A stretch of DNA of 64,000 nucleotides from Petrosia ficiformis (Eukaryota; Porifera; Demospongiae; Haplosclerida; Petrosiidae), in assembly GCA_947044365.1 (NCBI GenBank), contig OX345636.1, positions 2,562,001 to 2,626,000 on the forward strand, given 5' to 3'. Shown piece after piece: positions 2,295 to 61,282 of this stretch. A program made the position numbers and the translations under genes. The notes below the pieces were generated by a model, which ran no database searches, was not told the origin of the DNA, and saw only the letters and a list, made by a program, of their open reading frames with translations. How positions within the stretch are numbered: the stretch's first letter is position 1; every line of letters begins with the position of its first letter.

Positions 2295-2302
2295 CTTATT
2301 AT

Positions 2303-2676: not shown

Positions 2677-2684
2677 CTTATTAT

Positions 2685-3439: not shown

Positions 3440-3449
3440 AATAATATGC

Positions 3450-8520: not shown

Positions 8521-8579
8521 TGTAGTAAAGAGAAAATGACATAAGGGAATACTATCTATAATTAATCATACCTCACTAT

Positions 8580-14913: not shown

Positions 14914-14921
14914 TTGTGCAC

Positions 14922-21747: not shown

Positions 21748-22483
21748 ATTATTTTCTTAATTGTGCAAAAAAACATGTAAATTCTAACTTCAAATTAAAT
21801 ATACAAACAATGACACAGTATTATCTACTTCAAAAAAATATTATGATTGGTTACAATGAATATTAACTGTTCACATAAACACCTTTTAATGAGATAAAAA
21901 AAAAAACAATATTCATGCACACTCTAATCAATGAAGACCACCCAAGAACAAGAAAATGGATATCAATAAGCAAAACATTAACTATATATTAAACAAGTTA
22001 ATTGTGATAAGCATGAAGCTAAAGAGGACAGACTCAGTGAAAGGTTGGCAGCCCTTGGGAATCAAAATCTGGACAACTTGCTTTTGTCAACAGTGTTTGA
22101 GCTGCGACTGCATGTGACCTCTGACAACTACCAGTACATATACACAGGATTGTGAAGGGCTGGGACTTGTAACTCAGTGGTCCTCAAATCAAATATAACT
22201 TCCACAAAGCAAAAGGCTTTCATAAAGGTGTAGATTTATTGGGATAGGAAGATGCCTTGACTGCATGAGCTGAAGCCTCTAAAACGAGCCTACGTGGCAA
22301 TGTGTAAAACAAACAATAATTATTTATAAACATAATTCAGCAAAGATTATATTTATGTATAATTATAATATATACATAAATATAATCTATAATTATGTAA
22401 TTACATAATGACCAATGACGTCATTGGTCATTTATGGGTGTGACTCTTATAACTATTAAAAAAGTTAACTTTAGATTGTTTAA
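21748..22483. other. non-coding stretch between TTAA elements
   Basis: AT-rich with no gene recognised. A TATAATTATAATATATAC-type AT tract lies around 22340-22400, next to a palindrome-like ATGACCAATGACGTCATTGGTCAT at about 22407-22430. Confidence 0.5.
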
Positions 22484-22487
22484 TTAA

Positions 22488-23102
22488 GGTTGTAGTCTTT
22501 TCCGTGGGCGGATGCTACTCCAATCAGTTTCTAGTCTTGCAAGCTTCTTGCTGCATACAATCTGGTTCCATTCTGTATTTTTTGGAAGCCACACCCACCC
22601 GGGGGTATAATTATTGGGCCTAAATGTTTTGACTGATAGTTTATTTTCAGAAAGAAAGCTAAACACGGCCCACAGGTGGTGGAGGGGGCGGTCGGTGGGA
22701 AACAATGGCAGGGGTAACTGTAGTTGCTCTCTGAGAAAGATCGGAGTTTGATAGTGTCTAGAAAGGTAAATTTTATGGTTTCAGTGAAAAGCTACAGAAT
22801 TCAGCTTTCTTCAGCCTCTTGTAACTTTAAAAGTAAAATGAATTTGCAGAAAACGGCTTCGTAACTTTTCTGAAAATACATTGTACTTGGTGCACGCCAT
22901 GTATGGTGGGCGTGGCTTTTATGGTTTTGTACTTATGTTGATTGGAAAAATGGCGATTTTAACAATATTTCTTCAATTACAGGACAATATAAAGCTGATC
23001 GGAAGATTTGAAGGTTGCTATTACACCAGGTTAGAGTCATATAATATAATATTCTATTTTGAAACTGGTTGGAGTCGCATCCGCCCACTCCCTAGTACCA
23101 CC
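22488..23102. mobile_element. TTAA-target non-autonomous DNA transposon, copy 3 (complete, 615 bp)
   Basis: Flanked by TTAA (22484-22487 and 23103-23106), in the opposite orientation to copies 1 and 2. Terminal inverted repeats GGTTGTAGTCTTTTCCGTGG and (inverted) GGTGGTACTAGGGAGTGGGC. It serves as the reference for the family because it has neither the 171-bp expansion nor the DIRS insertion. No transposase gene. Confidence 0.9.
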
Positions 23103-23106
23103 TTAA

Positions 23107-23593
23107 TTAAGAAAGTTAACATTAAATTGACAAAAGGACAATGTGAAAATATTTGGGAGATGATTCATCAAACTACGTCCTTGTATTGTGGGTTTCTTCT
23201 GGTTTGTAACAGTGTGGTTAAAAATAAGATAGTTAGAGGTCTTTAGCTGAGGATATTAATTGTTTTAGAGCTCTTCCTTTGCTTGAACTTGATAACAACT
23301 AATATCCCTCCCCTATAATGAAACCTTCACCAAAGACACCTCACCATATCATGTGAATGCCTGTATAATTTATATGATTAGTTAACATTGTAGAATCCAT
23401 CAACTTTAGATTCATAGGATGTTTTCAGTTCAATTCATTAAAATCACAGCAAAAAAAAACACCAAAAAAACAATTACACAGAGAGAATACTACATCTACC
23501 ATACTATTTGAGATTAAAAATTCTAGATATAATATATAAAAGTTTACATATAACTGTATTATGTTAGTAACATTAATATTAGTTTTCCCTCCA
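23107..23593. other. 3' flank of the large Death/ankyrin/caspase gene
   Basis: Sequence downstream (minus strand) of the stop codon at 23594. AT-rich and non-coding; no canonical AATAAA was found on the minus strand close to the stop. The 3' untranslated region probably lies here. Confidence 0.4.
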
Positions 23594-23952
23594 TTAAAGT
23601 TTAAATTCTACAAAATCTGGTCTTCCCATATACTTTTTAACTATATCTACTCTTTCCAAGAAACAATTGACTTCCTGCGCAGTATGCCTGAGATTTAATT
23701 TTATCAGCACTTCAAAGACCTTTCCCCAGGTTACAGAAGTGGGTTGTCCCTGTATCCAATCGTTAAGTATTATATTTAATTTGCTTAAATTACCAAGAGC
23801 AGCATTCTTAGTCAACGATTTAAGATCACCAACTGTAATTCCTAGTTCTATGCCCAAGACATGCCAATCAGGTGAATGGTTTCGGAGTAAATTATAAACA
23901 TCACATAACTCTGGAGACTTCTTTCTCATCGAAAACTCTCCTTCAGCTCCTT
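23594..23952 (-). CDS. terminal exon: C-terminal Death domain and stop codon
   Basis: Acceptor TTATCTAG (AG at 23954-23953), stop TAA at 23594-23596. The exon reads SPELCDVYNLLRNHSPDWHV, LGIELGITVGDLKSL, a linker and TWGKVFEVLIKLNLRHTAQE, then VNCFLERV. This is the six-helix Death-domain pattern, with Trp in helix 2 and again in helix 5. The frame joins exon 24191-24856 in phase 1 (C|AA). Death domains bind other death-fold proteins, so this end probably recruits partners. Confidence 0.85.
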
Positions 23953-26900
23953 CTAGATAATAAAGAATAATATAAAAAGTATAATTATAGCTATGCCTGA
24001 AATTAATAACAAGAGTACAATAATAATAATTATTATTTTCATATGCATCGAATGAAAGCTGTATGCATGCATGCATGCATATTAAGGAGAGTAATGCAAA
24101 TATATGCAATGGAAAAATGATTTTTCAATGCAAGAGTATGAAAATGCATGTTACTATGAACAATAATTACAGATCATTTTTTAAACTCACGTTTTAGATT
24201 AATTTCACCAATGTTATCAATCATGTAGAATGATTGCTGATGACCTTCTCTTTCTATGGCATCACGTGTTTGGCTCAAAATATTAATTAGTGGAAGATCA
24301 AGTTTCAGATTGTCACTGAGATAGCGAGTCCATAGTCCTCCTTGAATTGTATCTCCCACTGCCTTCTCACCAACAGATGTGGCAAATGCAGCCAAGCCAT
24401 CAGTAACTTCAACATTTGTGCTGCGAGCATTTCCACTCAAACAGCAATCAAAAAAGAAAAAGAACTTATGTTTCTTTTTACCTGTATTGCCAGCTTCAAA
24501 AGGATGTATTATCTCGCTTTGAATATTAACATGAACATTATCACTTGTCACCACAAATGCGCCCGAGTCATCAATCCCACCATGTCCGGCAAAATAGAAT
24601 GCAACATAGTCGTATATGCGTGGGTACCGATATTTAGCACCAGCTTGAATCAAGCACTTTAAAGAATCACGATTCAAGTTGTTCTCACGCAAGACGGCAA
24701 ACTTCAAGTCCTTTTTAAAAGTCTGGTACATGTTGTCCACATCAATGTCTGTTCCTGCTACAGTCATCCCAATGACAAAAGCAATACCTTGTGCCTCAGG
24801 CTTCTCTCTCTTGCACAGAGGCGTTATTTTTGATGTAAAGTCCCCTGGTTTGCATACTACAAAAAAATATTGTCAATCATTAATGTGATGATTATATTAG
24901 CACAATAATATATGCACAGTATGTTTGCAGGACAAATCATGTTGCAGTAGATATGCATGTAATGGAGAGAATATGTTTACAACGTACAACCTTGGGTAGG
25001 AAAAGAATAACTTATATAAAAATACACAAGCGGAAAAGACCTGTTTTGTTGCAAATCTGACACAAAAGGCTCAACGTCTATACTTGCATTATACATCAAT
25101 TTATTCCACAACTTCTGTTGAGTTTAACTCTTTACCGACTATAATTGAAATAAGCATTTTCGTTATTAACCTAAATTTAATTAGGAAATATTGTGTGGGT
25201 GGAGCCTTAAGATCTATATAGCTTTATTCAACTCTATAACTCTCATATTTTATAATACTCAAAATTCTAACTTACTATGTGGAAAGAAGATTCTTTAACA
25301 AACCCATTGAAGTAAAATGTATGCTTCGCTTTCATCAAGAAGAGGGAAAGGCGAACGTTTGTAAGTATTGTAGTCGACGGGCAACGCCCACTTTTTGTCT
25401 ACTCTGTATAACGCCTAAATTTTAAGCAACCATGACTTTTAACTCACTTAGTCATACAGAAGATCTTCTGAGAAAGCTATTGATACCAAAAACATGCTTC
25501 GTTAGCTACAGGAAAGCAGCAAGACGAGTATTTGAAAAAGTAGTAGTCAGCGGCGACGCCCATACTTAGCGTCTTTCTCACTTTTTTTGGGCCTACAACT
25601 TGACGTTTTCCCTAATTTAAACTAACTAAATGTCTTCTTCGTAGTGTGTGCTTGTCTATATTTAAAGATTCTATCATAAAATTGCCTTTTGCTATTTAGG
25701 TTGCAAATCTGCAACCTTCGTTAATTAATGCATTATTCAAAAGTTGCATATTTGCAACCTTCGTCGGTAAAGGGTTAAGCTGAAGTCCTCATACCAATAA
25801 TGTAATTCCTAAGGTTAGCACAGTAAAATTGTTGAAACCATCATTTCCAAGCATGACATATTCCTATACGTAACACCTACATAAGCCTATGTACTTCCAC
25901 ATTTTGAATATTGTGATACCACATAGATCCCATATAAGAATAATTATGGACAACAGTCATTTGTTCGTATGACAAATCATAATTAAATAATTTGTTAAAT
26001 TTTTAATACGTATAAGTTGTTGTTCTTGTAGCTTGATGTTTTAACTATAGAAGATAATGGCTACAGTACTATAATAAGTATTATTGTTGTATTTTTTATT
26101 TCACTTATTTCTGTATGGTCTGTTTACAGAGCATTGCTGAAAACTGCTGAGTGGTGCCAATGAAATACAAAAAAAATGGAAAAATAAATAAAATAGAAAT
26201 GAAATATGTGGAGCTAGAAAATGACCTTTAGCTTAGATCCAGCACATTATGTTGTAGCAGCCACAGTGAAATCAAGTGCAATTGAGATAGTGACTACCTT
26301 ATTTGTACTTGATTTCAAGCAGGTTTAAAAAGCGAAACAAAGACAAGTTGTGTTCCATAATTATAATATTAACAATTTTTTTTCCTACTAACAGTCATCT
26401 GAAAGGTGTAAAAGAGTAATCATTAAACTGAATGGCAATAGAGAAAGCCTATTGTTATTTGGAAGCTTGCTAGTATACCTTGTTTGATGTTCCAATGTTC
26501 GTAGTTTTGCTGGTAATAGACAGACAGAGACGTGCAAATGATTACAATAACCATCTGCACTGTCTTGGTGAGTTAGACTTAATACTTATATAATTATAAT
26601 TATTATGATTAGCATTATAAATAAAAGTTATAGTTTAGTCTCTCATTGTACAATATAAATATGTGACCAGCTATGAGAAGACCAGGCTTATGGATTAAAA
26701 TAAAATACAAGTGAAAGTATACAGTTATTAGTTATACATTGGCAATCACCATTTTATTACATAAAAAGCTTCACTATATAGTATCTTATATTCAATTGAT
26801 ACTTTCAGTGAGGCTTGGAGACCTCTATGCTTTTCGCTAGCCTATGCTAAAGCAACTTTATGGAATTGAATTGGAGTCAAAAATGAAAGATTAATGACTT

Positions 26901-29900
26901 CAAAGTTTTAATTGCTTGTTGTGGTTTGTGTTTATCTTGATTGGGATGTCTCATAAACCAATCTAGAGCTAATTTTCAGGCAAACAAAAACTTTATATTT
27001 TGAAATTTCAATCCATAGCCTGGTTTTTTCAGAGACAGTCGCATATTATTTCAAACTTACTGTCACTTTCCTCTATTGGTATGTCTTGTGACTTCTGTCG
27101 GACATCACTGCAGATACCTAGATAGAACAAAAATATTCGTAAGTAGCAACATAATTATAAACTTGTTCCTAACTGACTGTTATCATGAGCAATTGTAATT
27201 ATATACTATGTATTACAATTTAAAGCTAAAGCTATGCTAGTTAATATAATAACTTAATAAAATTATTGTAAAACAAATTGAAAGAGTTATCAAGCACTTA
27301 TACAAACACTTTGTATAACTAATGATTATAGTCAACTATTATAATATAGATTGAATCTACACCTTCTGTACTATAAATACTATACAAACTTACTATCTTC
27401 TTCCTCTGGTGAAGTGTCTGTGCTCTCATGTGGCATACTACGAAAGGTATCTGAAGTAATAATAAATATCGTAAGTAGCTACTACAAAAAAATGGAAACA
27501 CATCATAGTAGATGACTTCAATTTAATGAGTGAATAATAGTCACTTTTATAACGTTTAATGTAGTCATTTGTTTAGTGCGAGGTTAGAATTTTGATATTA
27601 AATGTGGTGAAATGCAAGATGCAGTGCAACTGATGAGTAAACAAAATGAGAGGTTTTCCAACATACATCAAGGAAAACCTCTAAGTATGTAAATGTGACA
27701 GAAAATTGGTAGGATCCTTAAGAAAATCACACAGATATGGCATGTTTCTACATTATCACAAGACACACACCGTGTCTTGGTGATTCTCATTGATTCTACT
27801 AATTTTTGTTATGTTTCCATTCAGGATTCCCTTGACACACATTGGATGATCGTTCATTGGTAGGAGTGAGTTCAATTGACATTAAGCTGATGAAAATTTG
27901 AGTATTAAGATTACTTGTGGGTGATACCAGTAATGTTCATTTTGATATGATACCAAGTAGTTTGGGAATCAGTATTGATGGTATCGAGTACGATACCAAT
28001 GCTAAACAATGCACATGAGCACAATGCACATGGTTAGACAAGCAAATTCAGCTAAAAATGTGCAAGTGCTATGAAAATTTATCTGTTAAATTAGTGTGGC
28101 AGATTAAAATATAGGTGTGGTAGACACGTAATATGGTATCATAAACAACCGAAGACTATCGATATTGTTGGAAAATTTTAAGTATCATAGATATCAATTA
28201 TTTTTGATATTGCTCCCCTAATTAAGAAATTAATGTAATTTTAACAAGGATATCCTGCAGTTTGCTAGAGAGAGGCTCAGTTGCAATGAAGGAATAACTC
28301 TTCAATGAGTATAATAATAAAATTAATGTAAATCACAATTTTTAAAAATAATCATTTAGATAGTAGCTAAGTGTATATGATTACCCTTTTGGATATCCTT
28401 TTTTGGCAATCAAGGATTTCTAGATATAAACTTTGTCCTCCAGCTACAGTAAGTTAGACTTATGAAAACATTTAAATCAACAATGTCCCACCATCATTGT
28501 TATAATAGAAATACAACTTTCTGTTGTAGATATTGCTTGTTTTTGTTTGGGTTAATTGATTATGAATTAACTTTGATCATGTGATGAACCACGTGTTTGT
28601 TAACATTTGTTTCACTTCTTTAATTGTCATCCATTCAAAACAAGCAACATTAATTTAAACTAAGATCGAGTGAATAATATGAATCTCTTACACTTTCACT
28701 GTTGTTCAAACAAACAGCCAGGGTGTGTCTTTGTTCATCGTTATTGCCACATCTTAAATTCGTGGCCAAAGCAACATTGATTATTATAGTGCAATGTAAC
28801 ATTATTATACCTTGGTCACTATTTCCCACAGGAGCCGCTTCTTTCGTTTCACTGCTCTCTGTAGAAGAAACATATGTGTGAAATTCAAAAAAGTATATTT
28901 CTGCTCACTCTTCAATCATCATTACTGTAACTATATTTATTTATATGCATGGTTTTGTCATAGTAAAGTACTGATAATGCTACAGTATAATTATAATGCT
29001 GCAGAAATGTACATACCTCTGCTAGCAAAGTAAAGAAAAATTAATAGTATAGTATAACTGCATTTCAGTACTACCACTGTACAATACATACTTCAGAGGT
29101 GTCTCTAATCCAACTATTACAAAAACAATACCTTTCAAGTAAACTTCACCAATGTTGGAATGATAGTTAGATTCTTGTAGTCTTCCTGAAGCTATAGATT
29201 CATTCTTTACAGCATCGTGTGTTCGATCTAAAATGACATTAATTGGGAGAGGGAGTTTCATATTATTATGGAGATGAGAAGTCCATAGTCCTCCTCTCTG
29301 TTTGTCTCCTTCGGATTCGGAGCTTCTGGAAGTTGCATATGCAACCAGACAACCACCTGGAGCTTCAATCCTAAATTTCTGGGGTTCTGGGGAATGATCG
29401 TCAGGATCTTTTCTCATGGATTGAGTGGCCAAACAGCAATCAAAAAGAAGTATTCGACAACGATGTTTAAGGGTAGGAGAATGTTCATCCGAAAATGGAG
29501 AAACAATGGATTCTTCAATGTATACCTTATCAAGATCACCTTGTTTTCGATGCTGGAATGGTAGGATATAAGCACGTCTGTTATGATCAATACCACCATG
29601 ACCGGCAAAATAAAATGCTACAAACTTGTAACTGAGTGGATACACAATTTGGGGAGCAATATTCAGCAAGGACAGTACTTCACAGGCGGTTATATTACGT
29701 TGAGACAAGACGGCAAAATTCAAGTCTTCAAATGTTGATGACATGTTTTTTATGTCGATATCAATCCCATTTGGACCACATATTCCAATAACGAAAGCAA
29801 TACCACTAGCATTAGGTTTTTGCTGACTTTCAAACTCAACCAGCATCCTGAATTTCTCCTGTTCTTTCTGGTTGCCTATAAGAAGAAAGGTTTATATTAA

Positions 29901-32900
29901 ATTGTACGTTTTGTCATATCAATTATTGGATTACCAAACTAAATGCAAAATAACACTCTTTCTTACCAGTAGGCCTGTGCGATAATGAAAAAACCTATAT
30001 CACGATAATAATCCCAACTATCACGATTATCACGATAATTTGATTTCAAGAATAACTGAACAACATATTTATTTAATTTCAATTCAATGAATAAAAGTTA
30101 AATTATTATTAAGGAGTAAGATTCTCAAATGCCTCTGTTATTGAGCGCTGACCTGGTTTAGACAGTTCAGACATATGAAACTAGTAGCTATTTAAGACGA
30201 AACACTATCATATTCATCTTTATGGTTGTATTGCAGATGGACAATCAAGTTAGTGGTATTTTCTTTGTAAGACAGCACAAAACACAGTGAACTGTCTGTC
30301 TCTTCTTTTTATCCGGCTCCAAAAATTTCCCCTCTTGTGCTAGAAACCCGAAATATTTCCAAACAGGACTTTTGGCCTTCTCTAAAGGTAGGTATTCAAA
30401 ATTAGAAGCCATCGTTACTCGACGAGATGCTTGTAAGTGTATTGATTGAACAATGTGCGAGCAGTGTGCGCATGCGCAAATTATCACGATAAGAATGTCA
30501 ACATTATCGTTATCGCGATAACAATTTCTTTTTGCGATTATCGACCTATCGCGATTATCGCACAGGCCTACTTACCAGTAGTAGTTTCTTGCTCATTTGA
30601 TACACCAGGTGACTGGTTGCTATTCCTCTCTAATAGGAAAAATAATGAATCACTATAACTTGTAGTACAAACTTTCATTTCTGTGCAGAAGCTTGATAAT
30701 TTTATATGAAAATCAGCACTGATAAATACTACAAAAAGGATACCACACACTCGGCAAAATGTCATCAGTCTTGATGTTCACATAAAAATTATATTAGCTA
30801 GTATTATGAGCTTATAATATTTGATAATTACAACAATGTCTGGGTTGCGGTCAGTGAGTTAGGGGTACAGAAAGTGAATGATAGCTGAGATATCTACAGC
30901 AGAGCCACAGTGTTGGAAATGGGAAGAATTGTCAAAACATGATCAGTGCTCTAAGGGCTAACAATTAATTAAAATGTAGACAATAGTCAAATTTTTATGG
31001 CCCACAGGCTAGGGCCTTCCCTATGATTGCTTTCCCACAGGTTCGAACGATATATATATAAATTCTTGTATCGCTTGCATGAGTATGTGTTGTATATGTA
31101 GTTAAGGAACCTGCATCATTCCAGGAGGATCAGTCAATTAATGAGTGTGGCACATAATAGAATGTGCGCTCTGGCTCTACAGGCTTGTAGCGTACGTAGA
31201 ACTGCTAGATATTCTGAAATGTACTACTGAAGTTCTACAAGATCTTTTAAAAGGTAAGGAGAGTACATAATCAAAATAATAACTATAATAGATTGAGTGA
31301 ATCTCTTACACTTTTACCATTGTTCAAACAAACAGCCAGGGTGGGTCTTTGTTCATCATTATTGCCACATCTTAAATTTGTGGCCAAAGCAACATTGATT
31401 ACTACAGTGCAATGTAACATTATTATACCTTGGAGACTAGTTTCCACAGGAGCTGCTGACTTCATTTCACTGTTCTCTGTAGAAGAAGCATATGTACGTT
31501 TAATATATTTCTACTCACTCTTCAATCATCATTACTGTAACTATATTTATATGCATGGTTTTATCATGGTAAAGTACTGATAATGCTACAGTATAATTAT
31601 AATGCTGCAGAAATGTACATATATCTGCTAGCAAAGTATAATAGTATAGTATAACTGCATTTGAATACTACTACTGTACAATACATTCTTCAGAGGTGGC
31701 TCTAATCAAACTATTATAAAAACAATACCTTTCAAGTAAACTTCACCGATGCTGGAATGATAGTTAGATTCTTGTAGTCTTCCTGAAGCTATAGATTCTT
31801 TCTTTACAGCATCGTGTGTTCGGTCCAAAATGACATTAATTGGGAGAGGGAGTTTCATATTATTATGGAGATGAGAAGTCCATAGTCCTCCTCTCTGTTT
31901 GTCTCCTTCGGATTCGGAGGTTCTGGAAGTTGCATACGCAACCAGACAACCACCCGGAGCTTCAAGCTTAAATTTCTGGGGTTCTGGGAAAGGATCGTCA
32001 GGATCTTTTCTCATGGATTGAGTGGCCAAACAGCAATCAAAAAGAAGTATTCGACAACGATATTTAAGGGTAGGGGAACGTTTATCCGAAAATGGAGAAA
32101 CAATGGATTCTTCAATGTATACCTTTTCAAGTTCACCTTGTTTTCGAAGCTGCAATGGTAAGATATAAGCACGTCCGTTATGATCAATACCACCATGACC
32201 AGCAAAATAAAATGCTACAAACTTGTAACTGAGTGGATACACAAAACTGGGGGCAATATTCAGCAAGGACAGTACTTCAGAGGCGGTTAGATTACTTTGA
32301 GACAAGACGGCAAAATTCAAGTCTTCAAATGTTGATGACATGTTTTTTATGTCGATATCAATCCCATTTGGACCAGATATTCCAATAATGAAAGCAATAC
32401 CGCTAGCATTAGGTTTTCGCTGACATTCATAATGAACCAGCGTCCTGAATTTCTCATGTTCTTTCTGGTTGCCTATAAGAAGAAAGGTTTATGTTAGATT
32501 GTAAGTCTTGTCATATAGATTATTGGTTTAGCAAAATAAAAGCAAGATAACACTCTTACCAGTAGTAGTTTCTTGCTCATTAGATACACCAGGTGACTGG
32601 TTGCTATTTCTCTCTAATTGAAATGAGGAAAAATAATGAATCACTATAACATGTAGTACAAACTTTGATTTACTGTGCAAAAGCTTGATTCTACAGCAGA
32701 GCCACAGTGTTGGAAATGGGAAGAATTGTCAAAACACGATCAGTGCTCTAAGGGCTAACAATTAATTAAAAGGAAGACAAAACTCAAATTTTCATGGCCC
32801 ATAGGGCCATCCCTATGATTGCTTTCCCATGGGTTTGAACAATGTATGTATATATATATTCTTGTATCACTTGCATGAGTATGTGTTGTATATGTAGTTA

Positions 32901-50900: not shown

Positions 50901-53900
50901 TGTCATTATTCTTCACTGTACGAGGATTTTTAACTTGTTTTAGTAATCTAAAAGCTTCTTCTCGTCTATCGTAGTTGAAAGCATCATAGCACTTCTTGTC
51001 TAATTGAGCTAAAGACAGAAAAATTAAAACACTTTTGCTTGCAATTGAAGATAAAAATAGACATGGAATTTAAAGTATGGAACAATTTATTAACTCCCTC
51101 TACCAAACATACCTAGTGACTTTAATAGTATGTAGAATGCAATTATAGCTCAACAGACTAAACGTTTATGCAATTGCACAACTGTGAATACAGAAATCAG
51201 TAAAATGAAATAACATAACACTCAGGGAAACTCTACTTCACTAAACCAAGTCTAGTCTGCATTTCAACAACAGCAATTCCAGATATCACATGTGTATATA
51301 CAGACAACAATGGGAATGATAAAGAAATGCTGAAATCCCTGTGGCATTTATAATCACTAATCTGTGCAAAGGAGTTACACAAGGGGGCAGAGAAAGAAAT
51401 ATATTTAAAAAGTAATCTTTTAACTTCCACTTCATAACACAGGTTATGATAGATCATTTAATAGTGTGCATATGTTAGCAATCAGTATAGTATTTCTTAT
51501 AAGTTTATAATTATTACAAATTTTGTGCAAATTTTACTTTTTGGAAATATCCCTGCATGATAAAAGCTATATTGGTCTTTGAAATTACTAGTTTTATTAC
51601 AGATTGCAATAATGCTAGCTATGGAAAACAAGGATACATAATAAATTATATACATATAATATGTATTACCTTAATTCTACCTTTAATTGCATGTACTATA
51701 TAATTTGAATTTAAATATTTTAGCAACTAATGTAATAATTGCTAAAATTAGTACAGTCTTGTTAATTTTTTCATGATCATTTTATTAGGCATCGGCGTGG
51801 CTCACAAATTCGTTAAAATTAATGCATGCTAAATCTAAACGTTTAAGAATCACTAAATTTAATGGACACAATTAACAGTAGGCTTAATGTATCCTGGCTG
51901 ATGTCCAACAACATCTGTATTGTTTTATTACTGTTGCAAAAGAGTTATGAGTATTTAATTGTGCCTCATTGACATGGCTAATCCAAATATTATTATAGCA
52001 TCTGAGGATGTAGTGTGCACATGGTTAACAAAGACAACACAATATATCAAAACAACTATCATACTAATTACATAAGCAGAAATAAACAACAAATGTACCT
52101 ATACATGTTTCCAGATATTCCACAACAGTTAGTTTTCCATTGCTTCCAGCCTTGCTTAATGGGGTATTACCATTTGTATCCTCACAGTTTGGATTAAACT
52201 GACGCTCAATTATTAGCTCTTTTACTACATCCAGCCATCCATGATATGCAGCACAATGAAGAAGAGTGAAATTGCTTTTACTCTTCACTGTACGAGGATC
52301 CTTAACTAGTTTCAGTAATCTAAGAGCTTCTTCTCGTCTACCATAGTTAAAAGCATCATAACACTCCTTCTCTATGTCAGCTAAAGAGGGAAGAATTACA
52401 ACAATTTGCTTGCATTTGTAGATATGTAATACAAACATGGAATTTAAAAATGCAGATCAAATTATTACGCTACTCTACCCATCAAAATTCAATATGTCTA
52501 GTGACTTCCAGAGTACAAAACCAATTTTAATTATATCTCCAGAAACAAAAGGTTTATACAATTTGCACAACTGAAATATAGAATAACATAACATTATATA
52601 TACTAGAGTGAAGGAAGCTCTACTTCAATTTAATAAACCAAATCTAATTTCTATTGTAAGAAGAGCAATTCCGGATATCAATATAATGCAAGTCTAGATG
52701 ACAATATAAACAATAAATAAGTAAAATAATTCCAGCATTTGCACAACATTTATAGTTAATTAGTAATCTGTGCAAATGATGTGGTGCAGGAAGTGCATGA
52801 AATACTTAAAGTAATCAATCTTATGAATTCCATTTTATAACGGAAATTATGAGACAGTAAAATATATGCAGGTTTGGGCAATCAATTTATATAATAAAAT
52901 TTAATTGTTATAGAGAATCACAAAAAGCTGTTGACCTTTAGAATTTACTTAACTACTTACTACAGATGGCCTCATTGCAGTGTTATCTATCTACAAATGG
53001 GAAACAAAGATAATTATAATAAGTTATGTACATATCTATTATCCTGGCTAATGTCCAACAACATATGTATTGTTTATTACTACTACAAAAGGGCCATGAG
53101 CATTGTTTGTGTCTGATTGACATGCTGATCCAAACATCCTCATAAACGTTATAGCCTCTGATTAAGCAATGATAGACAGCAGAATAAATGACATGTGTTG
53201 AGAATGGTGACTACAGTAGTGGTATTGCTATTCACATTATTGAGAGATACTACTATTTAAATTATAAATTGTATGATATAAGTACGCAAGATGTAGATTT
53301 GAACTTGGTATTTGAAAATGTGAATTGTGACCATTTGGCTCGCCATAAAATACAATAAATAAAGTACTTAATTTTAATTTTGAAGTGGGCAATTCAATTC
53401 TAAAAGTAGCCTTCACTCACACTTTATAGCCTATATTACAAAAGAAATCACAGTAAGAATACTAATCAACGTTGATTTATTGTTCTCCTTCTCAAAAGGG
53501 TATTACAAATGTTACATGGAATCTCCTGTCCAAATAACCCATTACATTTTACAATGATATAGAAATATATACTCACATGGTGTACGAGTTAGATACTCAA
53601 CAACTTCCTGCTTTCCGAAAACACGAGCTTTGTCAATTGAAGTCTCACCATCATTATCTTTCTGTAATGGGTCACACTTCTGATTATCTATAAGGTATTG
53701 TAAAACATCCAGGTGTCCACTGCTACTAGCTACATGTAGTGGAGTTAAACCTCTCGAATCAACTTGGTTCGGGTCACATTTGTACTCGGTTATCAGTAAT
53801 TTTACTGTATCAAGCCATCCCCGATGAGCAGCACAATGAAGAAGAGTGAAGCTGTGTTCACCCTTCACAGTATGAGGTTGTTTCACTTGCTTCAGTAAAG

Positions 53901-56900
53901 TAAGGCCTTCCTCCTGCCTATCATGGTTAAAAGCACTGTAACATCTGTCTTCTATTTCTGTCATAATGTATAAAAAATAATAGTTTTAACAATAAAGTGA
54001 ACAACTGTACAGCAAATAGTTTATTGTTTTTTTTAATAAAGCAAATAGTGGGAGGATGACAGAATGAGTTTTATTCAGAGTTGCAACTAGGTTATGAAAA
54101 ATGATGTTAAATCAACAAAAGTGAAGAATAACTGTTAAATTATTATTTCTTAAAAGTAAACAGCATTCCACCAGACAGTAAATATTTCCTTTCATCATAA
54201 AGCTTAAGCCTGGTAATGATTTGCTTCCCATGTATATGTTGATGCAGTGCATTGATTGTAACTAAATGTATGTTTGCACAGGGCGGAAATAGTAAGCCAA
54301 TTGTTGGACATTTTGGCCTACTTTCACCACTTTTGCCTTGCTCCCCATATACATTGTATAATAGCTCAGTTTCAATTTACCAGACATTCACTAGATTTAT
54401 CGGACAATGTCCTGCATGACTGACTATTTCCATACCACTATGTATTTATCTCTTCATTACCTTTGCTAGTGGTTGTTCCATCTTCTGTGGGTGATGGAGG
54501 TGAGTTAGGTACTATAAATAAATGAAAATAAGATCCTCATTAACAAAGATAATTATAGAATCGACAAACTCAATACTCAGATGTAACTAACAATACATTA
54601 GAACAGTAATATAAACACTTATTATTTTTCGAATGTATATAAATTATTAAACGATTTGAAAACTCCAATTATGCAGATAACTTAAATTACATACTGGTTC
54701 TGCAGAAAGCAAATTACATAACCTTTGCTTTGCATTGCATACACACACTGTAGTGGGGTCACTGAATCCCAACTCAGGTGGATCGTGATGTGTTGCATAG
54801 TTAAATTAATTATCTTGCTATTATAACAGGGCCCTCAGTAACTTGATAATAGCCCTCTTATTGGTCCCTTAGAAACTATCATAGCAAAATATTCAAATGC
54901 ACAAATTCATTTGCCATCATGGCTGCTACGTATTTAAGAGTAGACACTAATCTTATTTGGGAGGGGTGGGGGTGCTTAGATGACACATGGCCATCAGGCT
55001 ATGGTAAGGTGAATGGTCACTCCTACATTTCAATTGCAGACAAGCTAAAATCTCTGCTACAAAAAGATAAACACACGCAATTGAGTGTTTTTATAACAGT
55101 AACTTCAAATGGCAAAACTGCAGGACTGTTGATCTTGTATATTTTCCATAATAATATATTTCTGCATTTCAGAGGCTATCAAAGCAGTTTTACACAAATA
55201 CAAATCATATGTTACAACCCATTGTTGTAATCATCCACTAATTAATTTCAGGTATATAACATAACCAAAAACTTGGTATTAATAGAAACATATGATATGC
55301 TTCCAAGGAGCATATAGGGAAAAACATGGCCAAAAATGTCAAGTGAGCACAAAGAAACAACAACATTTGTTATTGTAAACTAAAATGTAGCAGGACAGTA
55401 TACAAATTTCACAGATGCACAGAATATTGTATTTTATGAATAAAAATATTCACAAATGATAGTAAATAATTTAGCAAAATGGAACACTCACATGGATGAT
55501 CTGTTGTAATTTGATCGGCAAGTTCATTTTCATTTACTAAGGGTCTCCTGAGTGCATTAGCAAGTAGTAACCAAGATGCACATCCAGTGTACAACCAGTG
55601 CATGAGCATTTTACGATGAAATTTTGATGGATTTGGGAAATCCATTTCCATCATATCCAAAATATAAGGTGGTATATGAAGCTCAAGTCCCAAGTTATAA
55701 CATTCAGTAACTCCAAGGGTTGCTGTCATTACTTCACGAAGATCAGTATCTGCATAAAAAATCAAAAATGTTAATAATGATAATTATATTCAATCACAAT
55801 AATAATAATAATAATAATTATAGTTACACAAAACACTAAATCCTAATAAATAAGACTGTAGGAGGAAAATGAAAAATGCTGATAGTCATTGGGATTGGAA
55901 TTTCGAACCCAGGGCCACTGACTTCAGCCACCAGTGGTCTCATCACAATCATCAGCACTTCACAGTCCTACGGCAGCCCTGAATGTCGCAGTTGTCTCAA
56001 TGTTCTATGTGAAGGTTTCTAATAGGCCTGTGCGATAATGGAAAAACCTATATCACGATAATAATCCCAACTATCACGATTATCACAATAATTTGATTTC
56101 AAGAATAACTGAATAACATAATTTATTTAATTTCAATTCAATGAATAAAAGTTAAATTATTTATTAAGTTTCCAGTTCATCTTCCATCATTATTGAATGT
56201 ATCGAGGCTCGAATGATTTAAGCATGTGACGAAATCATGGATCAGTTACACAATCATAAGGTTGCATGTCTTTACCAATGAAATAGCAAACAGAAGCAGT
56301 AAGAGTCTGCCATCTCTTAGAATGTCTTGGTAAAGGAGTAAGATTCTCAAATGGCTCCATTATTAAGGGCTGACCTGGTTTAGACGGTTCAGACGTATGG
56401 GAACTAGTAGCTATTTTAGATGAAACACTTTCATATTCATCTTTATGGTTGTATTGCAGATGGATGATCAAGTTAGTGGTATTTCCTTTGTAAGACAGCG
56501 ATTGCTTACACAAAACACAGTGAACTGTCTGTCTCTTCTTTTTATCTGGCTCCAGAATTTTCCCTCTTGTGCTGGAAACCCGAAATATTTCCAAACAGGA
56601 CCTTTGGCCTTCTCTAAAGGTAGGTATTCAACGTTAGAAGCCATCGTTACTCGACGAGATGCTTGCATTGATTGAACAACATGTAATCACATGTGAGCAG
56701 TATGCACATGCGCAAATTATCGTGATAAGAATGTCATTATCGCAATAACAATTTCTTTTCGCGATTACCGCACAGGCCTAGTTTCTAATGTTCCACATGA
56801 CAATCCCTACGTTCTATGCGAAAGTCTTTAATGTTCTATGCAAAGGTTTCTAACATTCCATGTAACAATCACAACGTTCTACATGAAGGTCTGTAGTGGA

Positions 56901-59900: not shown

Positions 59901-61282
59901 AATTCCCTCTCATCTCTGTGCATGTCATGAGGGCTTAATTAAATGCTATAATGCATTTTATCTAGGAAGACTAGGATAATAGTTATAAACATCACATATG
60001 CATGCACATGGAAGAATTTAAAAGTCTTTGAAAATGATACACAAACAAACATTCAGATCACTTTTCATTGTCTATGGTGAATCATAAACTACCTGTGGTA
60101 CTTGTTGATTGAAGATTTGTAGGCGGCTCAGTGCTATTGTTGTCATCTGTAAATAAATAAAACATTGAAATGAAGTTATAAGATATGAATTATCGATAAT
60201 AAAATGAGATGGATTGTTATCCAACACACTTAAATGTGTAAGTATATGCTGTCATTTAGCTTGTGGAACAATAAGATAAGACTAGCTAATTATACATTCC
60301 TGGTGATATGATGATAAATCATAATAATTATGCAACAACAATTCGCTGTTTGTAATTAATATTAATGCTCATGTACATCATAAAAATTATTCCCAGATTC
60401 TTTACCAGAAAATGATGAAACAGCTAGCACTGAAAACTTTATTGATTATACACATACCCATATATATAAACAGGGTAGCCCTGGTAAAACTTTTAGGTCA
60501 GCCATGTTTTTAATTTGAAATAGGAGGATTCCCTACAAATGGCCAGTTTCAGTCACTGCTACGTCAGTTTACTATATTCTTTAACATATCTGAGTAGGTA
60601 GGAATCTTTTCAAAATAAAAAAAAAAACAAACGTTTTTAGCCCAATTAGTGTACAAGGTGAGAATTATAAATTTCCAGTTATTAACCACAAGGCGTTAAT
60701 TGCATGAATTTAACTCATAAATAATTAATTAGTAAACTTTGCCACACGTGTGCAGGGTACATTATTTGCTTTGGTACATAGTTAGAAAATCCTATATATG
60801 CCTATGACTATACATACAATTTAGAGGTAATCTGTCGGTTTGCAAATGCTTTAGCTAAAAATGCTCTATGGAGGAGAAACAAGTATCCATATGATTGTTT
60901 TGAGATGACTAATCATTGCAGTTAACTTTTAATTGCTTTCCTATCCATGTGCCGGGACTGAATCTATATAATTATTCTTGTGTCATATGCAAGTTATATG
61001 CAAGTTGTTTGTGGTGGATATGTCAATTAATGGGTGAGGCAACAAAATAATACAGTTTCTATCTCTCTCTTTTTAATGGTTCTAGTGCACATATTCAAGT
61101 TAAGGTACAATAGCTCCATAAGCTTATTTCTTCCTGCTAGTCTATAGACAGACTGTTACTGTAGGTCAAGCCCCAGAATGACACAACCTATTAACAACAT
61201 ATACAATACAGCTATAAAAACATTCTGAATCAATCATTGACTTACTTTCTTCATTTTTCTGCGGTCTTTTTTGCTCCTTCTG
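23594..61282 (-). CDS. giant modular gene: Death - ankyrin array - three C14 caspase-like domains - Death
   Basis: A chain of 33 predicted exons on the minus strand, given one by one below. They are: linker exons; a Death domain; 16 ankyrin exons (two preceded by 24-bp mini-exons, one by a 51-bp linker); linker plus caspase-like exon A; linkers plus caspase-like exon B; three linkers; caspase-like exon C; terminal Death domain and stop. Every junction is phase 1 and every internal coding exon is a multiple of three (except the phase 0/1 exon at 61246), so the frame survives joining, skipping or duplicating any of them. Joined, they make about 2,600 residues. The only terminal exon found is the last, so it is modelled as one transcription unit, but several genes or alternative starts are possible. 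The product would be a cytoplasmic, non-membrane protein combining binding repeats, a cysteine protease fold and death-fold adaptors. The first exon was not found. Confidence 0.65.
24191..24856 (-). CDS. caspase-like (C14) domain exon C
   Basis: 666 bp, acceptor TTTTTTTGTAG, donor AAAC|GTGAGT. Begins with a short Lys-rich lead, then GIAFVIGMTVAGTDIDVDNM (first strand and loop of a C14 p20 domain), DLKFAVLRENN, and the catalytic His in YVAFYFAGHGG. The catalytic Cys is in FFFFFDCCLSGN, and GGLWTRYLSD follows. FDCC with GHGG is closer to metacaspase/paracaspase-type C14 peptidases than to the QACRG pentapeptide of classical caspases, so Asp specificity cannot be assumed. Diverged from exons A and B. 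Confidence 0.88.
24857..27060. other. 2.2-kb intron with a TTAA element
   Basis: Intron before caspase-like exon C. It holds the element at 25128-25774; the remainder is AT-rich sequence with no coding exon recognised. Confidence 0.6.
25128..25774. mobile_element. TTAA-target MITE, CTTTACCGAC-ended family
   Basis: A 647-bp element flanked by TTAA (25124-25127 and 25775-25778). Termini CTCTTTACCGACTAT and (inverted) CCCTTTACCGACGAA. Inside are locally repeated segments (words such as AAGAAGA and GTAGTCG...GCAACGCCCA/GCGACGCCCA at about 25370 and 25550). The CC(Y)T start with TTAA target suits piggyBac-type mobilisation. No coding capacity. Confidence 0.8.
27061..27117 (-). CDS. linker exon (57 bp)
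   Basis: Acceptor TTCTATCTAG, donor GACA|GTAAGT. Reads SICSDVRQKSQDIPIEESD, a polar acidic linker. Phase 1 on both sides; pairs with the next exon through A|TA. Similar in length and acidic end to the exon at 27394-27450, so probably a duplicate. Confidence 0.7.
27394..27450 (-). CDS. linker exon (57 bp)
   Basis: Acceptor ATTACTTCAG, donor GATA|GTAAGT. Reads DTFRSMPHESTDTSPEEED; polar, Ser/Thr/Glu-rich and likely disordered. Phase 1 both sides. The region 27118-28810 around it is intronic and non-coding as far as I can see. Confidence 0.7.
28811..28858 (-). CDS. linker exon after caspase-like domain B (48 bp)
   Basis: Acceptor TCTTCTACAG, donor CAAG|GTATAA. Reads ESSETKEAAPVGNSDQ. It is the counterpart of the exon at 31429-31476, showing that linker plus caspase exon were duplicated together. 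Phase 1 both sides. Confidence 0.75.
29132..29875 (-). CDS. caspase-like (C14) domain exon B
   Basis: 744 bp, acceptor TTCTTATAG, donor AAAG|GTATTG. Encodes GIAFVIGICGPNGIDIDIKN, FEDLNFAVLSQRN, catalytic His in FVAFYFAGHGGIDHN, catalytic Cys in CRILLFDCCLATQSM, then a GGCLVAYATSRSSESEGD segment and GGLWTSHLHNNMKLPLP. Full p20-like fold with the small-subunit region following. Same length as exon A and very similar. No stop or frameshift, so both copies could be expressed. Confidence 0.9.
29970..30570. mobile_element. hAT-type element with BED-finger remnant, inserted at a splice donor
   Basis: A 601-bp element with inverted ends TAGGCCTGTGCGATAAT. It is flanked by the exact 8-bp repeat CTTACCAG (29962-29969 and 30571-30578), which is the splice donor of linker exon 30576-30629 read on the other strand. 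On the minus strand it carries a fragment of a BED-finger protein (KAKSPVWKYFGF, KKKRQTVHCVLC). A longer relative is at 56023-56780. The paralogous site near 32560 is empty, confirming the insertion point. Confidence 0.92.
30576..30629 (-). CDS. linker exon before caspase-like domain B (54 bp)
   Basis: Acceptor CCTATTAG, donor CTG|GTAAGT. Reads ERNSNQSPGVSNEQETTT, identical in protein to the exon at 32560-32613. Its donor is formed by the target-site duplication of the hAT element at 29970-30570. Phase 1 both sides. Confidence 0.8.
31429..31476 (-). CDS. linker exon after caspase-like domain A (48 bp)
   Basis: Acceptor TTCTTCTACAG, donor CAAG|GTATAA. Reads ENSEMKSAAPVETSLQ. Phase 1 both sides. 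Confidence 0.75.
31729..32472 (-). CDS. caspase-like (C14) domain exon A
   Basis: 744 bp, acceptor TTCTTATAG, donor AAAG|GTATTG. Reads GIAFIIGISGPNGIDIDIKN, FEDLNFAVLSQSN, catalytic His in FVAFYFAGHGGIDHNGRAYI, catalytic Cys in CRILLFDCCLATQSM, and GGLWTSHLHNNMKLPLP near the end. Nearly the same as exon B. All family residues I can check are present, so it is predicted to have the protease fold; substrate preference is unknown. Confidence 0.9.
32560..32613 (-). CDS. linker exon before caspase-like domain A (54 bp)
   Basis: Acceptor TTTCAATTAG, donor CTG|GTAAGA. Reads ERNSNQSPGVSNEQETTT. Serves as the empty-site reference for the hAT insertion in the paralogous exon at 30576. Phase 1 both sides. 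Confidence 0.8.
33725..33991 (-). CDS. ankyrin exon 16 (last in transcript order)
   Basis: Acceptor TTTGTTGTAG, donor AAAG|GTAAGT. More diverged: NNVTILHYAAYHGWLDIVKE, ITPLRKAKANGKDNVVQYL, ending in LKK rather than LET.I. This suits a terminal position next to the caspase linker. Confidence 0.85.
34394..34675 (-). CDS. ankyrin exon 15
   Basis: 282 bp, acceptor TTGTAG|CTGAGAC, donor ATAG|GTACAT. Variant residues: KGSHEEAHTLMKQVKDPRTV, FTVLHYAAYHGWLDIVKELI. Open and phase 1. Confidence 0.88.
35635..35916 (-). CDS. ankyrin exon 14
   Basis: 282 bp, acceptor TATGTAG|CTGAAG, donor ATAG|GTACGT. LLHCAAHYGWLDIVKVLI and GHQYNPECEDKDGNTPLS; open and phase 1. Confidence 0.88.
37370..37651 (-). CDS. ankyrin exon 13
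   Basis: 282 bp, acceptor TTTCTTTAG|CTGAAG, donor ATAG|GTATAT. Second repeat variant: HQLNTVCVDNNGNTPLCKAR, the only copy with Cys in that position. Open and phase 1. Confidence 0.88.
38466..38738 (-). CDS. ankyrin exon 12
   Basis: 273 bp; uses an acceptor 9 bp further in (TTTTCTGTAG|AGACAC), so it lacks the AEV start. DDFTLLHFAAYHGWLDVVKE has Phe in place of Cys. Open and phase 1. Confidence 0.88.
39184..39465 (-). CDS. ankyrin exon 11
   Basis: 282 bp, acceptor TTTCTTTAG|CTGAAG, donor ATAG|GTACAT. FTILHCAAYHGWLDVVKEMI and HQFDADCKDDDGNTPLS. Open and phase 1. Confidence 0.88.
39537..39593. repeat. 28-bp perfect palindrome in ankyrin intron
   Basis: Arms 39537-39564 and 39566-39593 (starting TTTCAGGGATCATAAACATC) are exact reverse complements with a single-base spacer. 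It lies 72 bp upstream, in transcript order, of ankyrin exon 11's acceptor. Confidence 0.95.
39886..40158 (-). CDS. ankyrin exon 10
   Basis: 273 bp, short acceptor form (GTCTAATATAG|AGACAC), donor ATAG|GTACAT. HVEDPRTVKSRNNFTILHCA; second repeat DDNGNTPLSRARDNKKQSVV. Open and phase 1. Confidence 0.87.
41068..41349 (-). CDS. ankyrin exon 9
   Basis: 282 bp, acceptor TTTCTTTAG|CTGAAATAG, donor ATAG|GTATAC. EEECYDAFNKGRQKKALRLL and LLHCAAFHGWLDVVKQLI; diverged basic patch QKK in helix 2. Open and phase 1. Confidence 0.88.
42352..42633 (-). CDS. ankyrin exon 8
   Basis: 282 bp, acceptor TTTCATTAG|CTGAAG, donor ATAG|GTACAT. EALGLLKQVKDPRAVKSKND then the standard first repeat. Open and phase 1. Confidence 0.88.
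42832..42907 (-). repeat. tRNA-like sequence (Ala AGC-type body, acceptor stem unpaired)
   Basis: On the minus strand: D-arm TAGCTCAGATGATAGAGC, anticodon arm TCTGA-CTAGCAA-TCAGA (anticodon AGC), T-arm CTGGG-TTCAAAT-CCCAG, with box A/B-like promoter sequences. The seven bases on each side do not pair as an acceptor stem. It is therefore more likely a tRNA-derived SINE head or pseudo-tRNA than a working tRNA. It lies in an ankyrin-array intron. Confidence 0.6.
43351..43632 (-). CDS. ankyrin exon 7
   Basis: 282 bp, acceptor TTTCTTTAG|GTGTAG, donor ATAG|GTACAT. Starts GVVEKKCYDAFNYGRKQEAL; LLHCAAYHGWLDVVKEMI; second repeat NRFNPDCEDKDGNTPLS. Open and phase 1. Confidence 0.88.
44905..45180 (-). 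CDS. ankyrin exon 6 (possible alternative first exon)
   Basis: 276 bp. Entry is either by an acceptor after a long pyrimidine tract (...TTATGTCAAAAG|TC) or by the in-frame ATG at 45190-45188 (MSKVVDECFEAFNYGRREEA). As a spliced exon it joins mini-exon 45662 in phase 1. Donor ATAG|GTACAT. Resembles exon 4 (48501) more than its neighbours. Confidence 0.82.
45662..45685 (-). CDS. 24-bp mini-exon
   Basis: Acceptor TTTATATACAG, donor AAAG|GTAAAA. Reads ATCKEDKK. A near copy of the mini-exon at 49974-49997 and related by position to the linker at 54461-54511. Phase 1 both sides. Small and supported mainly by its duplicate. Confidence 0.5.
45686..47469. other. long intron, no exon recognised
   Basis: AT-rich. 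At 46860-47060 and 47190-47290 are ACTAAAACTAAAA-type low-complexity words like those around the hAT gene at 3.5 kb, suggesting a decayed element. No coding signal supported. Confidence 0.5.
47470..47751 (-). CDS. ankyrin exon 5
   Basis: 282 bp, acceptor TTTCTTTAG|CTGAAG, donor ATAG|GTACAT. DEALRLLKQVKDPRRVKSKN and second repeat DDDGNTPISKATSNSKHHVV, with Ile and Thr changes. Open and phase 1. Confidence 0.88.
48501..48776 (-). CDS. ankyrin exon 4 (possible alternative first exon)
   Basis: 276 bp. As with exon 6, it is entered by acceptor ...TATTATGTCAAAAG|TT (pyrimidine tract and a TTTTAACT branch-like word upstream) or by ATG at 48786-48784 (MSKVVYQCFEAFNYGRREEA). Variant KIKNLHAVVDSNNFNILHCA. 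Donor ATAG|GTATAT. Confidence 0.82.
48916..49488. mobile_element. TTAA-target MITE, CC(G/C)TTAGA-ended family, complete
   Basis: A 573-bp element flanked by TTAA (48912-48915 and 49489-49492). Termini CCGTTAGAGTGCTGA and (inverted) CCCTTAGATGGCTGAG. Locally GC-rich against the surrounding intron. Relatives: the truncated 12117-12503, and short remnants at about 30900-30965 and 32695-32765. No coding capacity; open frames inside are not genes. Confidence 0.85.
49974..49997 (-). CDS. 24-bp mini-exon
   Basis: Acceptor TTTATGTACAG, donor AAAG|GTAATG. Reads ATGIEDKK. Duplicate of 45662-45685; the surrounding intron text is shared too (GAGAAATAATGTTGGTGTTG against GTGAAATAATGTTTGTGTTG). Phase 1 both sides. 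Confidence 0.5.
50727..51008 (-). CDS. ankyrin exon 3
   Basis: 282 bp, acceptor TGTCTTTAG|CTCAAT, donor ATAG|GTACAT. QLDKKCYDAFNYDRREEAFR; first repeat LLHCAA-type with HGWLEGVKELI. Open and phase 1. Confidence 0.87.
52099..52380 (-). CDS. ankyrin exon 2
   Basis: 282 bp, acceptor CCTCTTTAG|CTGACA, donor ATAG|GTACAT. DIEKECYDAFNYGRREEALR; second repeat TNGNTPLSKAGSNGKLTVVE. Open and phase 1. Confidence 0.88.
53577..53957 (-). CDS. ankyrin exon 1 (three repeats; possible start)
   Basis: 381 bp, longer than the others because it holds an extra canonical repeat: LLHCAAHRGWLDTVKLLI, GLTPLHVASSSGHLDVLQYL and DGETSIDKARVFGKQEVVEY. Entered by acceptor ATTATGACAG|AAATAG, or by ATG at 53964-53962 (MTEIEDRCYSAFNHDRQEEG). 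Donor CCAT|GTGAGT. The middle repeat is the most consensus-like ankyrin repeat in the window. Probably closest to the ancestral exon. Confidence 0.88.
54461..54511 (-). CDS. linker exon between Death and ankyrin parts (51 bp)
   Basis: Acceptor ATTTATAG, donor AAAG|GTAATG. Reads LPNSPPSPTEDGTTTSK (first residue completed by the preceding exon), a flexible Pro/Ser/Thr linker. Phase 1 both sides. Confidence 0.7.
55492..55749 (-). CDS. N-terminal Death-domain exon
   Basis: 258 bp, acceptor TTTTTTATGCAG, donor CCAT|GTGAGT. Reads LREVMTATLGVTECYNLGLE, LHIPPYILDMMEMD, then KMLMHWLYTG and ASWLLLANALRRPLVNENEL. This is a Death-domain helix pattern with the WL...ASW..L..AL signature of helices 4-6. 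Occupies the whole exon (86 residues). It may pair with other death-fold proteins upstream or with the C-terminal domain at 23594. Confidence 0.82.
55891..57422. mobile_element. large foldback element carrying a nested hAT insertion
   Basis: Outer arms 55891-55945 and 57372-57422 are imperfect reverse complements (GGGCCACTGACTTCAGCCAC against GTGGTTGAATTAAGTGGCC). Inside, short tandem words (GTTCTATGCGAAAGTCT; TAATGTTC.ACATGACAATCC) run one way on the left (56000-56910) and the other way on the right (57030-57170). They meet at a poly-C run (56957-56977) and a TATATA tract. Lies in the intron upstream of the Death exon. Confidence 0.7.
56023..56780. mobile_element. hAT-type element with BED-finger remnant (758 bp)
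   Basis: Inverted ends TAGGCCTGTGCGATAAT / ...CGCACAGGCCTA; exact 8-bp repeats GTTTCTAA (56015-56022, 56781-56788). On the minus strand a broken frame encodes a BED zinc finger: KAKGPVWKYFGFPAQEGKF, then after a shift RQTVHCVLCKQSLSYKGN and LIIHLQYNHKDEY. The transposase core is absent. Longer sibling of 29970-30570. Confidence 0.92.
57566..57601 (-). CDS. linker exon (36 bp)
   Basis: Acceptor TACTCCACAG, donor AAAG|GTAATC. Reads EKSLEVDNRVLK. Phase 1 both sides. Short, so support is from splice signals and matching phase only. Confidence 0.45.
58010..58155. repeat. palindrome-ended MITE family 2, copy 1
   Basis: Ends TATGTAGCATGGCTTC and (inverted) ATAACATGGCTTCGAGG, with an internal inverted segment (AATAGCAGCCC / CTGCTATCCCGG). 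A diverged second copy is at 59705-59850. Short, non-coding. Confidence 0.6.
58400..59345. repeat. cluster of four about 150-bp palindromic elements
   Basis: Copies at about 58400-58540, 58561-58704, 58829-58987 and 59187-59342. Each is a near-perfect hairpin with outer ends TAGTATGCTAATAGGTCC / GGACCTATTAGCATACTA (or a variant) and an inner stem GTCCGAGGATGTGATATAGC. Between them are short inverted segments with GATGGTGACATCATCC words. A fifth copy lies at 63328-63482. Confidence 0.85.
59705..59850. repeat. palindrome-ended MITE family 2, copy 2
   Basis: Diverged copy of 58010-58155 (TATGTAGCATG...AAAGCCATGCTATATTA). Flanking sequence (ATGGATTGCATCAG...GTTGTAAA) is also shared with the region before copy 1, so a larger segment was duplicated. 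Confidence 0.6.
60093..60146 (-). CDS. linker exon (54 bp)
   Basis: Acceptor TTATTTACAG, donor ACAG|GTAGTT. Reads (N/D)DNNSTEPPTNLQSTSTT, a Ser/Thr/Pro linker like the other linkers of this gene. Phase 1 both sides. Confidence 0.6.
61246..61282 (-). CDS. most upstream exon found (37 bp)
   Basis: Acceptor TTCTTTACAG, donor GAAA|GTAAGT. In the only open frame it reads QKEQKRPQKNEE and leaves in phase 1, fitting the exon at 60093. Entry is phase 0, unlike all others, so it may sit just after the true first coding exon. No ATG. Confidence 0.4.

Follow-up and report, generated by a model that had tools for sequence, protein, structure and literature searches.

A 64,000-nucleotide stretch of the Petrosia ficiformis genome (contig OX345636.1, here C1, positions 2,562,001 to 2,626,000; C1:2562001-2626000), which we call the window and number from its first letter, carries on its minus strand a long series of modular exons. 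We read this series, at a probability of roughly 0.6, as one of six mostly intact gene copies encoding a Death domain, 16 ankyrin modules, one or more caspase-fold Peptidase C14 (C14) domains and a further Death domain, with one module per phase-1 exon, the modules being joined in order and C14 being activated through Death-domain clustering. The exon anatomy, the gene family, the constraint on the ankyrin exons and a caspase fold with catalytic His and Cys are direct observations. Mechanistically, judging by the roles of such domains in other proteins, the ankyrin modules, all carried in one mRNA and joined in order, would contribute to one large intracellular protein, in which they would bind a ligand or keep the protein closed; the Death domains would cluster copies or recruit partners, and clustering may in turn activate C14. 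The output would then presumably be an immune or cell-death response, the role that the original prediction for this locus had also suggested.

Domain exons were first located by tblastn with window exons, and splice sites were assigned by hand; the genome searched comprised 191,215,263 bases in 29 contigs, with C1 contributing 63,279,122 bases. The minus-strand series runs from 61282 to 23594, exactly the limits originally predicted for an open, one-strand exon series, and the joined translation of 2,598 amino acids has no internal stop. By tblastn, its layout consists of a Death-like exon at 55.7 kb (Death1), 16 ankyrin exons between 53.96 and 33.73 kb (B1 to B16), C14 exons at 32.5, 29.9 and 24.9 kb (C14a, C14b and C14c) and a Death exon at 23.9 kb (Death2). 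The original prediction had counted 33 exons, all in phase 1; we placed 30 exon candidates and found none of the remaining three. Phase 1 held at 29 of 29 adjacent junctions, none of which creates a stop, and the first exon (61282-61246, 37 nucleotides (nt)) enters in phase 0 and is thus not symmetric.

A genome search with an ankyrin module and Death1 recovered five sibling loci on C1, all within 0.65 Mb: c1 (2.40 Mb, plus strand), c3 (2.73 Mb, plus), c4 (2.80 Mb, minus), c5 (2.93 Mb, plus) and c6 (3.00 Mb, plus). Together with the window copy (W), they make six neighboring copies, each with exactly 16 ankyrin exons; 40 kb was compared per sibling locus. All 80 sibling ankyrin exons retain the AG and GT splice dinucleotides, an unchanged length and an open frame, so the exon series is more than a product of chance. 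Collinear sibling blocks are 73-99% identical, and the order Death, ankyrin array, C14, Death recurs in c1, c4 and c5, with c6 showing the same order minus the first Death exon; this recurrence supports the original proposal of a single gene with that domain order. The surrounding region (C1:2.36-3.04 Mb) contains large inverted and direct segmental duplications that bear the six genes, with some sibling blocks 96-99% identical.

Pooled ankyrin exons showed an excess of synonymous (S) over nonsynonymous (N) differences relative to the neutral share in W-c4 (68 S/103 N; p=8.5e-9), W-c6 (p=2.2e-6), c1-c4 (p=6.2e-10) and c4-c5 (p=0.034), and the ratio of nonsynonymous to synonymous rates (dN/dS) pooled over B1-B16 was 0.35-0.66 in six pairs, with wide variation among single exons. 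Judged from these sequence comparisons, the copies are a real, mostly constrained gene family, a conclusion that applies at the family level rather than to each copy being alive.

Within the array, B1 (53577..53957, minus strand; 381 nt, 127 amino acids) is one repeat longer than the others and is kept in all five siblings, and the remaining 15 exons encode 89-94 amino acids each. The latter, B2-B16, span 33725..52380 on the minus strand, are 267-282 nt long and are all phase 1-1: B2-B6 at 52380-52099, 51008-50727, 48776-48501, 47751-47470 and 45180-44905; B7-B11 at 43632-43351, 42633-42352, 41349-41068, 40158-39886 and 39465-39184; and B12-B16 at 38738-38466, 37651-37370, 35916-35635, 34675-34394 and 33991-33725. 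B2-B15 constitute tandem homologous exons of 273-282 nt. In the Pfam scan, given here for two of the 16 exons with queries carrying 1-3 residues beyond the exon, B1 matched PF12796 (Ank_2) at 113 bits and B8 matched Ank_4 at 46 bits and Ank_2 at 43.9 bits, all above cut-off. Among 56 modules (B2-B15 of W, c1, c4 and c6), 54 are different, and by eye the variation spares the ankyrin core residues. The very large ankyrin array of the original prediction is therefore present as 16 ankyrin exons, which form separate small modules rather than a single long regular run.

Elsewhere in the genome, no fused ankyrin-ankyrin exon was detected, as none of 23 matches reached query residues before 15 (150 of 426 candidates scored). 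An ankyrin triple used as a protein query gave 30 matches, the eight best covering 33-42% of the query; of six that were read, four were single modules read into introns, and the other two, P0058 (31% identity over 98%) and P0059, were ordinary ankyrin proteins with one cap. The same ankyrin exon forms another large cluster at C7:5131215-5489383, where the gaps, in the part read (L035, 5274501-5280500), are mostly much shorter. The introns of the window array hold an Rfam tRNA match at 42840-42898 (minus strand; 41.5 bits), for which ARAGORN made no call and which is perhaps a tRNA-derived repeat. Introns also hold two similar open stretches (56238-56686 and 30248-30571, minus strand) that by eye resemble a BED/hAT-type fragment.

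All three predicted caspase-like domains, each with GHGG and FDCC motifs, exceeded the Pfam Peptidase_C14 cut-off of 21.4 bits (64.9, 65.0 and 60.1 bits). These domains have the caspase fold; the catalytic residues H92 and C147 are invariant in a 46-sequence alignment and align with SHG and QAC of caspase-7. The first of them, C14a (31729..32472, minus strand; 744 nt, phase 1-1), is followed by a duplicated segment (28811..30629, minus strand) comprising a linker (30629-30576), C14b (29875-29132) and a linker (28858-28811). C14b is 89% identical to C14a, and this second C14 at 29.9 kb is a local duplicate. Each of c1, c4, c5 and c6 has a single C14 in the 40 kb fetched per locus, so the triple C14/Death arrangement is not supported as the native architecture: the additional C14 domains of W comprise the local duplicate and a foreign fragment lying within an insertion. 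More widely, C14 followed by Death is a common ending: 23 of 132 C14 matches have a Death match within ~6 kb downstream on the same strand (by eye; best 150 Death matches).

The insertion (782..25775, unstranded) occupies 25 kb, has TTAA at both its ends in the window, and is not at this place in c1, c4 and c6, whose collinearity with the window reaches to 25.78 kb and resumes at window positions 781-779. Its absence from c5 is indicated by collinearity only, the joint having diverged, and c3 has a different tail. In the window, the joint reads GCTTAA, followed by a 655-bp dispersed repeat, and the far end reads TTAATGTAG; the empty site is GCTTAATGTAG (TTAA) in c1 and TCAA in c4 and c6. Thus 25 kb were inserted at an apparent TTAA site. 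The dispersed repeat (25778-25123) has TTAA at its ends and >30 matches at 86-98% identity among those listed genome-wide; these ends suggest a piggyBac-like short element. Also within this interval are a GC-rich element (16598-20630, minus strand) and a hAT-type transposase frame with a dimerisation domain (3889-6033, plus strand). The GC-rich element, which we label DIRS-like, has one frame for a reverse transcriptase and another whose tyrosine recombinase match is weak and below cut-off.

The foreign C14-Death fragment (23105..24980, minus strand) carries C14c (24856-24191) and Death2 (23952-23594, ending in a stop). This 1.88-kb fragment is 96% identical to C1:48381423-48383287, 46 Mb away, and the differences accumulated since copying (7 S/15 N in C14c, 0 S/14 N in Death2, 2.2% in noncoding sequence) give no sign of constraint. 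The source family, at C1:48381423-48419340, includes three related C14-Death loci and a C14 copy that has decayed and contains stops. The terminal Death exon native to the family of W lies just outside the insertion, at window positions 1..122 on the minus strand, and continues to -242 beyond the window (C1:2561758-2562122), outside the range originally predicted. It has orthologues in c1, c4, c5 and c6, is open in these and in W, and matches PF00531 at 32.4 bits against a cut-off of 22.6.

Of the two Death domains originally claimed, Death2 scores below the PF00531 cut-off (20.4 vs. 22.6 bits), and Death1 in the window has no Pfam Death match of its own and is assigned as Death only via its family. 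Death1 (55492..55749, minus strand; 258 nt, phase 1-1) is kept in c1, c3, c4 and c5 and missing in c6. Of 15 family members in its alignment, 11 give a PF00531 match at E up to 1, the best at E 1.3e-7. When Death1 profiles were searched against solved structures, no Death match was usable (RIPK1 E 0.14, FADD E 0.28, PIDD E 0.66), and the top rows of one search were designed repeat proteins. A structure model of Death1 was poor (predicted local distance difference test score (pLDDT) 53.7) and was dropped as a search query.

The sibling c3 differs from the other copies in its output end. It is 99.1% identical to the window over 43189-33062 and 96-99% identical over larger upstream blocks, with a short 80-88% stretch near 50 kb; this similarity ends ~660 bp past B16, where a short repeat found at several places in these loci also ends. 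Beyond the break lies a 2,190-nt exon, phase 1-1, whose open frame continues that of B16. It carries a COR-A domain (E 1e-13), and its beginning resembles a P-loop, which we presume to be Roc. The c3 tail continues with a C14 exon and then a Death exon of another type. Because the c3 array is nearly identical and its tail different, two kinds of output end are found on nearly the same sensor array, an apparently clear case of exon modules being exchanged via phase-1 introns, the arrays involved being up to 99% identical. The Roc-COR and C14 exons of c3 are each ~90% identical to neighbors at C11 1,681,812-1,685,606, with nearly the same spacing. Roc-COR and C14 exons also cluster close together across C11:1362785-1685606 and are likely relatives of the c3 tail.

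Several small exons complete the series, all on the minus strand. The weakest of the set is the 37-nt candidate at 61246..61282 (phase 0 in, 1 out), whose splice sites are kept in c3, c4, c5 and c6, and whose differences between W and c4 are, by eye, amino-acid changing. A 54-nt linker at 60093..60146 (phase 1-1) is kept in c1, c3, c4 and c5, with an in-frame 9-nt length change in c4 and c5, and was not mapped in c6. Two linkers flank C14a: one at 32560..32613 (phase 1-1), and one of 48 nt at 31429..31476 with in-frame length changes; both are kept in c1, c4 and c5 and were not mapped in c3 and c6. Two more, at 27450-27394 and 27117-27061 (phase 1-1), are both kept in c1, c4, c5 and c6. Between Death1 and B1 lies a 51-nt linker (54461..54511, phase 1-1), kept in all four siblings that have that interval. 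Direct splicing of Death1 to B1 would create a TAA stop in all five copies having Death1, which this intervening linker avoids. A scan for further conserved exons across 61.5-25.8 kb under strict donor rules found none in three phases; because this rule also misses the 54511-54461 linker, the result does not prove that there are none. Candidates from a looser scan (e.g., 54772-54695) were uncertain and were not accepted.

A number of observations weigh against the ordered, Death-to-Death protein proposed here. In the closest pairs, purifying selection on the ankyrin exons is not visible (W-c1, p=0.067; W-c3, p=0.42). Both ends of the gene may be relaxed or diversifying, as the proportion of nonsynonymous differences is near or above that of synonymous differences in five of six pairs for the terminal Death exon, and Death1 shows 1 S/15 N between W and c4. 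The linker at 54511-54461 is weaker evidence, its junction being partly circular, because it was sought as a way round the stop. No start-codon exon was found in 64.0-61.3 kb under the criteria used. In a profile alignment to caspase-7, the C14 domains have P in place of the R of VRNG and G in place of the R of WRSPG, the second stretch being loosely aligned; we take these two positions to be the arginines of the caspase S1 Asp pocket, and their apparent difference bears on the substrate and even on whether the domain is active. Finally, the donors of B2-B15 match the consensus at 5-7 of 9 positions, compared with 7 for B1 and 8 for B16 (C14a and C14b, 5), and such weaker donors could also fit regulated inclusion.

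This last point bears on an alternative in which one or a few of B2-B15 enter each mRNA and generate a receptor repertoire. Tandem exons of similar length, the same phase and high similarity would suit such an arrangement, as would internal donors that are mostly GTACAT (10 of 14), in contrast to the B1 and B16 donors. However, the original idea that phase-1 symmetry lets modules be mixed freely by splicing was borne out as regards modularity and contradicted in part as regards free mixing: 17 of 406 exon skips create an in-frame stop, and each of these starts from Death1 or B1. Joining B1 to B10, B12 or B16 gives a stop in all six copies, as does joining Death1 to the same exons in all five copies having it, and the locus hence lacks one property of a mutually exclusive cluster, in which the constant upstream exon can be joined to every alternative; this bears on the Death1 and B1 joints rather than on mixing within B2-B15. 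Four introns gave no docking/selector RNA pairing signal (z -1.4 to 1.5; 20 shuffles each; 7 of the 14 upstream and downstream elements used), and in the chromosome 7 array the same exons lie 134-176 nt apart in six of eight gaps. We therefore regard a splicing repertoire as improbable; with every neighboring junction legal and such short gaps on chromosome 7, joining in order is the simplest reading. Less probable still is that the ankyrin array is transcribed separately from the C14-Death part, or that W is dead from the insertion. The transposon-bearing 25 kb ahead of the last native exon, the lack of a start exon in 64.0-61.3 kb and the absence of Death1 from c6 would fit such fossils or separate genes. 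Yet the order is conserved in siblings, the exons are open, the array is under purifying selection in the more diverged pairs, and c1, c4 and c5 all retain the phase-1 linker lying between B16 and C14a; W alone may nevertheless be a fossil.

A different ending for W, close to the original prediction, is compatible with the family reading, namely that its mRNA runs from the linker ending at 27061 into C14c and Death2 and stops there, yielding a triple-C14 protein and skipping the native Death exon ~23.5 kb further on. C14c and Death2 lie on the correct strand and are open, their phase-1 acceptors suit the donor ahead of them, and they finish with a stop codon; the fragment begins only ~120 nt ahead of the C14c exon, which leaves little source-gene sequence that could hold a promoter. 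We nevertheless consider this capture rather unlikely, given that no constraint is visible since insertion, coding sequence differing at least as much as noncoding, and that W retains an open native Death exon.

Returning to the ordered, six-copy family, its changes appear to be those of genomic exchange and insertion in phase-1 introns rather than of demonstrated splicing choice: c3 bears a Roc-COR/C14/Death tail, and W a duplicated C14 and an insertion bringing a C14-Death end in splice-compatible phase. The locus resembles a modular receptor, of cell death or immunity, with a swappable output part. We tentatively suggest, at a little under even odds, that recombination inside phase-1 introns lets the family replace entire output cassettes while the 16-module array stays almost unchanged, the cassettes being C14-Death, Roc-COR-C14-Death or an additional C14-Death end brought in from elsewhere. 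If true, this would be an animal counterpart of the cassette exchange of other conflict systems, and one cluster would still hold several of its states next to one another. Six close genes with a near-constant sensor and a varied output would also offer natural domain swaps with which to ask what signal the array detects and what function the C14 or Roc-COR end serves, in a group, the sponges, with large candidate immune and cell-death gene sets of which little is known functionally.

Among known systems, DAPK1-type proteins combine ankyrin, Roc, COR and Death; c3 likewise has ankyrin, Roc-COR and a terminal Death, but no kinase exon was seen in it, and C14 lies between Roc-COR and Death. Compared with caspases (Peptidase C14A; caspase-3/-6/-7/-9), the Petrosia domains share the fold and the catalytic His/Cys, whereas they have FDCC for QACRG, differ at the positions that we take to be the Asp-pocket arginines, and occur in the same exon series as an ankyrin array and Death. 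Sponge NLR genes, in the portions of the reports considered (PMC12909245, PMC6208332), are similarly expanded candidate sensors, some with Death domains; no NACHT domain was found in the Petrosia domain exons scanned, which comprise the mapped exons with the 5' end open and to that extent set the locus apart from the NLRs. Among the open-licence PMC papers listed, titles and abstract openings gave nothing on this exact architecture. Other sponges show responses of ankyrin- and Death-domain genes to microbial cues, according to the sections considered of PMC6208332 and PMC8242945. A close parallel comes from Amphimedon, where, in the part of the report considered (PMC8195603), a 357-protein family combines Death-like and TRADD-N domains with variable ends, ankyrin repeats and caspases among them. 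Both are sponge lineage-specific expansions, and in the Amphimedon proteins, too, the N-terminal Death-like domains precede a variable part, often ankyrin and sometimes caspase. No TRADD-N was found among the Petrosia exons scanned, the 5' end being open, and the Petrosia gene differs from the family as described there in its 16 ankyrin modules, one per exon, and its C-terminal Death. The Petrosia locus is a variant of this known kind.
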